38,229 nt of DNA from an uncultured Bacilli bacterium. Lineage in GTDB: Bacteria; Bacillota_I; Bacilli_A; RF39; UBA660. This document shows positions 11,562 through 13,177 of the stretch, piece after piece. Made by a program: the position numbers and the translations under genes. The DNA is taken from assembly GCA_947588765.1 (NCBI GenBank), contig CANPZG010000009.1:1-38229 (forward strand), given 5' to 3'. The number at the start of each line of letters is the position of its first letter. The first letter of the stretch is position 1. The notes under the pieces are model-generated. The model searched no databases, had not been told where the DNA came from, and worked only from the letters and a program-made list of their open reading frames with translations.

Positions 11562-12071
11562 TTATTTTTTCTTTCTTGTTAAACATATTCCTATAACAGA
11601 ACCGATAAATATTATTGGAGCAATTCTAACAAAAAGCCATACAAAACTATGAACTCCAACACCCAATACTGCTAATTCTGGATCATTATAATCCCATTCC
11701 ATATAAGTATTTCCTAGTGTTACCAAAAATATAAAAATAACTATTATAATTACACATATAGCTATAAATACTAGATGCCAAATTTTTCTTTTTGTTTCTT
11801 GTTTTTGGGTTAATTGTAAATTTATTATTTCTAATTTTTCAGCTATTTCTTTTAATGAATCTTCTTTTTGTTCCGTAATATTTTCTCCAAGTAAGGTACT
11901 AACTGATGTATCTAAAGCATTAGCTAATGAAACTAATAATTCCGAATCAGGAACCGATAATCCTTGTTCCCATTTGGAAATTGTTTGTCTAACTACATTT
12001 AATTTTATAGCCAATTCTTCTTGTGAAAGTCCTTTGGCTTTTCTAATAGTCTTAATATTATCTTTTAACAT
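11562..12071 (-). CDS. XRE-family regulator with C-terminal membrane segments
   Basis: Residues 1-65 are a Cro/CI-type helix-turn-helix with LSQEELAIKLNVVRQTISKWEQG. After a charged linker come two membrane segments (about residues 100-120 and 143-163). Such membrane-tethered XRE proteins probably respond to an envelope signal. The ATG at 12071 follows AGGAGG by 9 bases; the longer frame from 12092 lacks a site. The promoter TTGAAG-17-TATAAT is overlapped by the palindrome TTGCTTCAAGCAA, suggesting autoregulation. It borders the toxin-like units. Confidence 0.9.
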   Translation of the reverse strand: MLKDNIKTIRKAKGLSQEELAIKLNVVRQTISKWEQGLSVPDSELLVSLANALDTSVSTLLGENITEQKEDSLKEIAEKLEIINLQLTQKQETKRKIWHLVFIAICVIIIVIFIFLVTLGNTYMEWDYNDPELAVLGVGVHSFVWLFVRIAPIIFIGSVIGICLTRKKK

Positions 12072-12094
12072 AATAATTTCCTCCTTCACCAAGG

Positions 12095-12127
12095 ATTATA
12101 TGCTAAATCTATCGTTGCTTCAAGCAA
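12095..12127 (-). promoter_or_regulatory. Promoter with operator-like palindrome for the XRE gene
   Basis: TTGAAG (12123-12118) and TATAAT (12100-12095) are 17 bases apart. The 13-base palindrome TTGCTTCAAGCAA (12115-12127) covers the -35 box. It fits repression by the XRE protein itself. Confidence 0.6.
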
Positions 12128-12158
12128 TGCATATTAACATTTAATATTTGTATAAATT

Positions 12159-12242
12159 ATGTATAAGAAAGATTTTTTAATCTTATCTCTTATTCTAAAT
12201 ATCTTCTTACTTATAGCCTTACTTTCTATTTTAGTAATTTAG
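12159..12242 (+). CDS. Possible 27-residue hydrophobic peptide
   Basis: ATG opens a 27-codon frame. The peptide has charged MYKKD first, then an unbroken Leu/Ile-rich membrane segment to the end. No good ribosome site or promoter is visible, which lowers confidence. Support comes from the terminator at 12313-12350 and from the downstream 48 bases, which recur after the terminator of the better peptide gene at 12618. It could be a decayed or poorly translated type I toxin paralogue, or chance. Confidence 0.3.
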   Translation: MYKKDFLILSLILNIFLLIALLSILVI

Positions 12243-12264
12243 TAACTATTTTTAATAAGAGAAA

Positions 12265-12297
12265 AGCACTCAATTTACTTTCAGTAGATTAAGTGCT
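12265..12297 (-). terminator. Hairpin AGCACT/AGTGCT, minus-strand terminator-like
   Basis: AGCACT and AGTGCT close a long imperfect stem with CAATTTACT opposite AGTAGATT. On the minus strand it is followed by TTTTCTC. It would stop transcripts coming from the right before the XRE gene. Confidence 0.55.
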
Positions 12298-12312
12298 AAC
12301 CACATTATTGGC

Positions 12313-12350
12313 GAGTACTCAACACTGCAATGTTAAGTATTCTCTTTTTT
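12313..12350 (+). terminator. Plus-strand terminator of the first toxin-like unit
   Basis: GAGTACT-C-AACA and TGTT-A-AGTA-TTCTC form an interrupted stem followed by TTTTTT. It leads directly into the 48-base repeat. Confidence 0.6.
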
Positions 12351-12392
12351 ATTTTATTCAAGTTTCCTTGACAAACACATAATAACACAAAA
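12345..12392. repeat. 48-base direct repeat, copy A
   Basis: Matches 12769-12816 at 44 of 48 positions. Both copies start at the T run of a plus-strand terminator. On the minus strand both contain TTGTCA followed 17 bases later by TAAAAA, a possible antisense promoter. Confidence 0.85.
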
Positions 12393-12521
12393 CTGTACTT
12401 TTATCAATCAAGTTTCCCATTTTTACCACAAGTTTACCGTAATTTAATATTTAGTAAAATCAAAAATTGTTCATATATACTTAACCATATAAATGATTGC
12501 AAAATTTAATATAAAAATATA

Positions 12522-12550
12522 TTGTATAAAGAACATTTGTTTGATATAAT
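12522..12550 (+). promoter_or_regulatory. Promoter of the 30-residue peptide gene
   Basis: TTGTAT (12522-12527) and TATAAT (12545-12550) are 17 bases apart. Transcription would begin near 12557, giving a leader of about 60 bases. Confidence 0.7.
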
Positions 12551-12576
12551 TATCTTAGGAATACTTAATTAGTTTG

Positions 12577-12744
12577 GGTACTATTCTCCTTTACTTTTAA
12601 TAGTGGGAGGTGAAGTTATGAAAAAATCAGAGAAATATCTTTGTACTATCATAATACTCCTTATTATTGTGATATTAATCATACTAATAAAAATAGTACC
12701 AACTGCATAAGTCGGTACTAGACTAAATCTTTAGGAATAGTACC
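12577..12744 (+). promoter_or_regulatory. Complementary 5' and 3' mRNA segments around the peptide gene
   Basis: GGTACTATTC at 12577-12586 in the leader is the exact complement of GAATAGTACC at 12735-12744 in the terminator. It also matches AATAGTACC at 12692-12700 at the end of the coding region. CTCCT next to the leader segment can pair with the ribosome site GGGAG. Such alternative pairings hide the ribosome site in full-length type I toxin mRNAs. The function here is inferred. Confidence 0.6.
12618..12710 (+). CDS. 30-residue hydrophobic peptide, type I toxin-like
   Basis: The peptide starts MKKSEKYLC, then a 15-residue or longer Ile/Leu/Val membrane segment, then KIVPTA. GGGAGG lies 7 bases before the ATG. 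The transcript is complete: promoter 12522-12550, terminator 12734-12774, total about 215 bases. Complementary ends (see the regulatory entry) match the fold of type I toxin mRNAs such as AapA or BsrG types. The sequence is not a known toxin family that I recognise. A plain small membrane regulator is the alternative. Confidence 0.65.
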   Translation: MKKSEKYLCTIIILLIIVILIILIKIVPTA

Positions 12745-12774
12745 TAACTCTTCAAAATTAGGCATTCCTTTTTT
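12734..12774 (+). terminator. Terminator of the peptide mRNA
   Basis: GGAAT/ATTCC and CCTAA/TTAGG form the stem in 12734-12768, followed by TTTTTT. The left arm overlaps the segment complementary to the leader, so the two structures compete. Confidence 0.85.
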
Positions 12775-12816
12775 ATTTTATGCAAGTTTCCCTGACAAAT
12801 ACATAATAACATAAAA
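12769..12816. repeat. 48-base direct repeat, copy B
   Basis: Second copy of the repeat at 12345-12392, four mismatches. It follows the peptide gene's terminator. The minus-strand TTGTCA-17-TAAAAA would start an RNA near the terminator and antisense to the peptide mRNA. Confidence 0.85.
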
Positions 12817-12934
12817 AAGAATTTATTGCAAGTTTTCTATTTTAAAGTTTTGTCTATTTTAAAGTTTAAATAGTTCAAATAAAATTTTCAAATGGGGCAA
12901 TCTACAACTTTTCAGAAAAATGCAATTAAATTTG

Positions 12935-13177
12935 CTATCTGCTAATACCTTTGTTAACTGTTTGAAGCACTTCAGTAATAGAGTCTTTACTTTCAAGTTG
13001 AGCTTTATATTGCTCGGGTAAAAAGACTTTAAAAACTTGTTCTATAAGCGAAGTATCAATCCCTGTAAGTTTAGAAATTTCATCAAAATGAATATGTTGA
13101 CCTAATAATTTTATAATATTTTCTAATTTAGTTTGACCAATAACATTAAGTAAATTTAGTTTTTCGTCTTCTTGCAT
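12935..13177 (-). CDS. Small protein resembling the C-terminal tail of Rpn-type nucleases
   Basis: The 80 residues contain IIKLLGQHIHFDEISKLTGIDTSLIEQ, which resembles the short helix-turn-helix-like tail found at the end of Rpn/PD-(D/E)XK transposase-like proteins. The nuclease domain is absent. The start is well supported: AGGAGG 9 bases before ATG, so it is expressed as a separate small protein rather than a fragment. It lies 61 bases beyond tRNA-Thr. The ribosome-site context CGAAAGGAGG matches that of the gene next to tRNA-Trp. Confidence 0.7.
   Translation of the reverse strand: MQEDEKLNLLNVIGQTKLENIIKLLGQHIHFDEISKLTGIDTSLIEQVFKVFLPEQYKAQLESKDSITEVLQTVNKGISR

Follow-up and report, generated by a model that had tools for sequence, protein, structure and literature searches.

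What do positions 12522-12831 of the window (the whole stretch of 38,229 nucleotides from an uncultured RF39-like bacterium that we analysed) encode, and how would the products be controlled? A sequence-only reading had proposed a type I toxin-like transcript with a promoter, a strong ribosome site, a Lys-led hydrophobic peptide of 30 residues and a terminator, and all of these were confirmed when we read the sequence. The promoter of the putative toxin gene (12522-12550, plus strand) consists of TTGTAT (12522-12527), a 17-nt spacer and an extended -10 element, TGa-TATAAT (12545-12550). At least five of the six bases of TATAAT lie upstream of the ORF in 117 of 120 related loci. The positions of promoter and terminator predict an mRNA of ~218 nt (12557-12774, plus strand), which would start near 12557. 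The predicted fold of this mRNA (-56 kcal/mol) is far more stable than those of shuffled sequences (-35.4 +/- 3.8 kcal/mol; z -5.4; 0 of 200 shuffles). The Shine-Dalgarno (SD) sequence GGGAGGTG (12605-12612, plus strand) precedes an ORF (12618-12710, plus strand; ATG at 12618, TAA at 12710) for a putative membrane toxin, MKKSEKYLCTIIILLIIVILIILIKIVPTA. This peptide of 30 amino acids begins with Lys, has a long and uninterrupted hydrophobic stretch, and shares with type I toxins a length below 60 amino acids, a membrane helix and a charged end. The intrinsic terminator of the mRNA (12734-12774, plus strand) is built of the same bases as the 3' arm of a long-distance interaction described below, in an alternative fold.

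The unit belongs to a large family, which the sequence-only reading had not reported. The genome that contains the window (1.27 Mb, 25% GC) has nine DNA matches to it. Complete paralogues with other peptides are found on contig C42 (MYKKDFLIFSLILIIFLLIALLFTLVI) and on contig C23 (MKTKTFIIKTLKLITIILFLIIILIVVIKK and MNKKDFLILSLNIFIFLLILLLFIVLI), and there are decayed ones as well. The tRNA-Thr gene lies near the window copy, and two of the paralogues in this genome (L004 and L008) likewise appear to adjoin tRNA genes directly. We searched more widely with a conserved 26-nt core of the putative antitoxin, CAAGTTTCCTTGACATATTCATAATA, allowing up to 2 mismatches; a reversed-pattern control almost always gave zero. 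Within the window's family, 130 of 291 genomes and 87 of 150 genera had the core; outside it, roughly 217 genomes of the class were sampled, and one of them had it. By this sampling, the core occurs almost exclusively in the RF39-like family of the window. One complete class-B copy (L203, G586:C32) stands in a genome of another family in the same class and may reflect horizontal transfer or bin contamination. Named records with the core are uncultured Bacilli, Candidatus Ventrenecus and Candidatus Coprosoma, from animal guts; Coprosoma has been placed in the order RF39 (PMC8035907). Single genomes carry up to 16 cores, and clusters of three or four copies occur (L142, L165 and L195). Many copies, among them the cores L003, L065 and L087, lie near contig ends, which suggests that metagenome assembly tends to stop at these repeats and that their number is underestimated.

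An SD-preceded hydrophobic ORF was scored in 131 loci by a filter (SD at least 4/6, 18-50 amino acids) that may miscount a few of them, and it mostly starts 162-202 nt from the core. By their patterns, the peptides fall into five classes: A (KKDFLI), B (KTFIIK), C (KIVP, that of the window), D (KREFSQ) and E (KKDLLISF). Class C peptides were found in 48 of 148 genera, and in this class the mRNA start AGGAATA is conserved. The pN/pS of the peptide ORF is 0.53 in class C and ranges from 0.22 to 0.53 over the five classes; on this comparison, the ORF is coding and under purifying selection in all five. The sequence-only reading had not recognized the peptide family and thought it possibly undescribed. 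In agreement with this, five peptides matched no family in Pfam or NCBIfam at a meaningful score, giving only sub-threshold membrane-helix noise. The comparison with TxpA/BsrG and other described type I toxins, made through these libraries, gave no relation. In Rfam, two tRNAs were the only gathering-score matches in the window, and nothing matched at E<=1 in 12100-12900. The family was also not matched in any plasmid, phage or viral contig.

The two ends of the mRNA are complementary, and their pairing, which we call the clasp, is where comparison is most informative. The leader segment GGTACTATTC (12577-12586) had been described as exactly complementary to the terminator region and nearly so to the end of the coding region. 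Both statements hold: its exact complement, GAATAGTACC, lies at 12735-12744, and 9 nt at 12692-12700 (AATAGTACC) can also pair with it. The full complementarity is longer than had been claimed, about 29 pairs, in which GGAATACTTAATTAG...GGTACTATTC joins both arms of the terminator; the 5' arm, supported by covariation, occupies 12558-12587 (plus strand). In all classes the ~28 nt that open the mRNA form this helix with its 3' end, including both terminator arms, and the terminator loop is bulged out. Class D has a weaker clasp of about 12 pairs.

From class to class, leader and tail vary in sequence, yet within each locus they are still complementary. The mean duplex of a leader with its own tail has -25.3 kcal/mol, compared with -17.8 kcal/mol for swaps between loci (0 of 5000 permutations) and -23.0 +/- 0.26 kcal/mol for swaps within a class (0 of 5000). 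Double-change cells, whose counts are not independent because the loci share ancestry, numbered 51 in class A against 23.6 in shuffles (both-side changes in 12 of 27 pairs), 42 in class B against 11.1 (10 of 27 pairs) and 12 in class C against 4.0. The covariation scores exceeded their shuffled values in every one of 500 shuffles: 0.238 against 0.183 in class A, 0.203 against 0.120 in class B and 0.120 against 0.103 in class C. Sliding the partners lowered pairing from 88.6% to below 45% in class A, and from 97.4% of cells to at most 47% in the 40 loci of class C. An alignment of leader and tail by local identity placed 56 of 120 loci above the maximum shuffled score, and as its null was noisy, we rested the existence of the clasp on the duplex swaps and pair counts. 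Thus, the conservation of the pairing among homologues, which the sequence-only reading had named as a check, is strongly borne out.

The tail can pair either with the leader or within the terminator, and where the two partners conflict it follows the leader. In class C, a leader G or A opposite a tail C or T covaries (GC 26, GU 8, AU 6), and we saw no covariation in the terminator helix of this class. For instance, four class-C loci have GAT in the tail for GGT, which leaves a U-A pair with the leader intact and breaks the terminator pair (C.A). Covariation of the clasp with the leader that goes so far as to sacrifice terminator pairs indicates that end-to-end closure itself is selected. Additionally, mismatches between leader and tail favour G.U over A.C by 231 to 81. 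This excess is expected if pairing of the mRNA strand as RNA is selected, and an inverted repeat acting as DNA would not give it. Class D showed no such excess (20 G.U, 22 A.C). Judged by these comparisons, the clasp is a real RNA structure that has been kept by evolution.

A second structure covers the ribosome site. It had been suggested that CTCCT beside the leader segment could do this, and the pairing with the SD sequence is real and covaries. The hairpin (CUCC.../...GGGAG) lies at 12586-12612 on the plus strand. In the 40 loci of class C, where it reads CUCCUU...AAGGAGG, there were 13 double-change cells against 2.7 expected (0 of 500 shuffles). Constrained folding predicts that the SD sequence is ~84% paired in the full-length, the truncated and the antitoxin-bound mRNA alike, and the hairpin is independent of the clasp in the predicted folds. 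As the accessibility of the SD sequence is low in every predicted state, the fold alone does not tell what opens it. We also considered a bsrG-like model in which the antitoxin frees the anti-SD sequence from the clasp and thereby closes the SD sequence. As a general switch this model found no support, the same ~84% pairing being predicted throughout.

A predicted antisense gene, convergent with the toxin gene, overlaps the 3' end of its mRNA. Its strong promoter (12831 to 12803, minus strand) is TTGCAA-17-TGt-TATTAT with an extended -10 element; the candidate that had been seen in the downstream repeat is real, and it is conserved as TTGNNA, 17 nt and TGnTATNAT in 170 loci. Promoter and terminator predict an RNA of ~108 nt (about 12796 to 12688, minus strand; both ends predicted), whose overlap with the mRNA, the last ~87 nt of the latter, is fully complementary. 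The 5' half of this RNA is the same sequence as the mRNA leader. It begins with a stem-loop, CAGG-GAAA-CUUG (12783-12794, minus strand), whose loop is of the GNRA type in 176 of 177 copies; where the loop of a listed core departs from GAAA, a hand count found about 20 of 22 still GNRA. Its stems are compensated, as CAAG/CUUG, AUGAAG/CUUCAU, AUGGAC/GUUCAU and AUGAGU/ACUCAU, the last three occurring in some class-C loci with pairing preserved. Some class-C loci (L216, L231, L236, L256, L267, L268, L271 and L272) carry, in place of the usual core and at its position, a second type of 5' end (around TGTATAnrGATGAAGGAAACTTCAT), whose stems differ yet still pair. An alignment of antitoxin 5' ends with hand-completed 3' ends was left out of the evidence.

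The antitoxin terminator, which the sequence-only reading had missed, lies at about 12689-12720 (minus strand), over the last toxin codons and the stop codon. The site at 12720-12694 is the only terminator-like one on the minus strand of the region (0.1 expected), and such a site is present in 118 of 120 loci. In class C it overlaps the IVPT codons and the stop codon, and the tail of the peptide is therefore constrained by both products. Comparison thus establishes the promoter, the 5' hairpin and the terminator of a gene that is presumably transcribed. Together with the conserved end-to-end pairing, this predicted antisense gene supports the type I toxin-like interpretation.

The two genes are not lost equally. 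All 42 class-C toxins that were found by peptide profile and had enough flank carry the antitoxin module, 34 with the usual core and 8 with the variant type of 5' hairpin at the same place. Conversely, 39 of 170 antitoxin modules have no intact toxin by the ORF filter, and 20 of these 39 keep toxin remnants. The loss of toxin with retention of antitoxin, the reverse being unseen, is the pattern predicted for an addictive toxin. The window itself holds a decayed copy upstream (12159-12410), also absent from the sequence-only reading. Its paralogous toxin ORF, MYKKDFLILSLILNIFLLIALLSILVI (12159-12242, plus strand), has lost promoter, leader and SD sequence, and from leader position 57 on the copy is 89% identical to the C42 locus. 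The minus-strand antitoxin gene of this copy is apparently intact (12255-12407), with a promoter at 12407-12379, a 5' hairpin at 12370-12359 and a terminator hairpin at 12298-12266. The toxin mRNA from C42 may be a trans target of this orphan antitoxin.

Based on these results, we consider it highly likely that the locus is a single copy of a type I toxin-antitoxin system that is family-wide and has not been described before. Our best reading, by analogy, is that it works like bsrG/SR4, with a 5'-3' clasp like that of hok and aapA. The model that follows is inferred from bsrG/SR4, aapA/IsoA and hok (PMC6562991, PMC6733600). We propose that the strong promoter would give the ~218-nt mRNA for a 30-amino-acid, single-helix membrane peptide, and that the nascent SD sequence would be closed at once by the local hairpin. 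After termination, the 5' leader would invade the terminator and pair with both arms, and the resulting ~29-bp clasp would render the mRNA inert. The ~108-nt antisense RNA would be made constitutively from the opposite strand and, its 5' half being leader sequence, would compete with the leader for the 3' end of the mRNA. The long duplex of antitoxin and mRNA would be destroyed by RNase III, a gene for which is present in the genome. Once the short-lived antitoxin is exhausted, 3' trimming or refolding may open the surviving mRNA, the peptide would be made, and the membrane would be damaged.

More tentatively, and with rather more doubt than confidence, we suggest that the antitoxin is a trans mimic of the leader that shares its target, the terminator arms, and that the terminator is a three-way switch (terminate, clasp, capture). 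A single antitoxin cassette would then serve at least five peptide classes, in up to 16 copies per ~1.3-Mb genome, with orphans perhaps immunising against paralogous toxins.

Among known systems, bsrG/SR4 and bsrE/SR5 of Bacillus subtilis, in which RNase III carries out decay (PMC6562991, PMC7430163), come closest in geometry. The unit at 12522-12831 shares with them a short hydrophobic peptide, a convergent antisense RNA complementary to the 3' end of the mRNA, an SD sequence masked in a local stem, and a main closing helix (their P1), the 3' part of which the antitoxin contacts; here geometry and covariation both support 3'-end antitoxin pairing, local SD hairpin and closing helix. It differs in several respects. 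The peptides are unrelated by Pfam and NCBIfam, the closing helix invades both terminator arms, one antitoxin GNRA hairpin is common to several peptide classes, and the family resides in uncultured RF39-like genomes with none seen in phage or plasmid records. By size and by its 5' stem-loop on the SD sequence, the unit is nearest to Fst/par of pAD1, which also has convergent promoters, a membrane peptide of ~30 amino acids and a terminator region common to both RNAs. Pairing of the Fst antitoxin with the leader relies on direct repeats (PMC7472228). The leader and tail repeats of the window are inverted, not direct, and the antitoxin thus cannot pair with the leader as in Fst; the window peptide also gave no match to the Fst family. 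CD0956.2/RCd10 and its relatives in Clostridioides difficile have a similar convergent overlap and several paralogues per genome, with longer toxins of 34-53 amino acids, several of them prophage-borne (PMC6563280, PMC7699646), and the family libraries showed no relation to them. With respect to the clasp, the nearest systems are aapA/IsoA of Helicobacter and hok/Sok. They have the 5'-3' long-distance pairing of full-length mRNA that we find here, which in them makes that mRNA inert, and local hairpins that cover the SD sequence of nascent RNA; they also form multi-copy modules with folding conserved family-wide. The partner of the antisense RNA in aapA/IsoA is the mRNA after processing and truncation (PMC6733600).

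In hok/Sok, the antisense RNA targets the 5' leader. The antisense RNA of the window, unlike this, is antisense to the 3' part of the mRNA alone and contains the leader's own sense sequence, and targeting of the leader or ribosome-binding site, a defining feature of hok/Sok, is absent.

Some of this evidence could be read differently. There is close to an even chance that no 3'-processing switch exists, as in txpA/RatA and bsrE/SR5, and that the clasp stabilises the mRNA, the SD hairpin sets a low level of translation and the antisense RNA triggers decay. This is a variant within the type I reading, and its probability overlaps with that of our best explanation. Firmicute relatives with 3'-overlapping antitoxins do use SD sequestration and not 3' processing (PMC6562991), and the independence of the SD hairpin from the clasp in the predicted folds agrees with this; the tail that follows the leader at the expense of terminator pairs argues that end-to-end closure is selected, against such a variant. 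A larger departure, which we regard as improbable, would keep the anatomy and make the peptide a small membrane regulator, not a toxin, throttled by mRNA folding and the antisense RNA. Purifying selection on the peptide would suit it as it suits any function. It fits poorly with antitoxins that outlive their toxins, with one antitoxin cassette common to several peptide classes, and with copies that are numerous, arrayed and often decayed, as in toxin-antitoxin systems and unlike a housekeeping regulator.

Could the unit be a miniature mobile element with terminal inverted repeats and an incidental ORF? Its multiple copies in this and other genomes, their intergenic positions and the inverted repeats at its two ends would suit such an element. 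The bias towards G.U is strand-specific, however, and the terminator loop is present in the 3' copy of the repeat and absent from the 5' copy. The ORF is under purifying selection, the promoters are conserved, the SD and antitoxin hairpins covary, and plasmids, phages and viral contigs hold no copies, all of which makes this explanation very improbable. Chance complementarity around a spurious short ORF has a negligible probability: hydrophobic ORFs are common in so AT-rich a genome, but the duplex swaps, the covariation in classes A, B and C, the pN/pS values and the fold z-score refute it. Provided that the peptide is toxic, comparison makes the type I reading preferable, and the family is very probably a new one of this known kind.

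We found no paper that joins RF39 with type I systems, and this would be the first evident type I toxin-antitoxin family of this uncultured order of gut bacteria. Its natural variants are numerous enough for an RNA mechanism to be read from covariation alone. With this family one can test whether an end-to-end clasp and an antitoxin that overlaps the 3' end, which have been described mostly in different systems, work in concert, and whether related toxins are countered by orphan antitoxins. Genes of about 25-30 codons are easily missed by ordinary annotation.

Three further observations concern the surroundings of these genes. In one class-C locus near a contig end (L276, G119:C70), there is an abrupt change of sequence where the toxin ORF ends, and an insertion element may lie there. 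In the window, an HTH_3/XRE-type regulator of 176 amino acids (11562-12092, minus strand) is encoded directly upstream of the tandem toxin-antitoxin copies. On the other side, an ORF of 80 amino acids with no Pfam match (12935-13177, minus strand) lies between the toxin-antitoxin unit and the tRNA-Thr gene.
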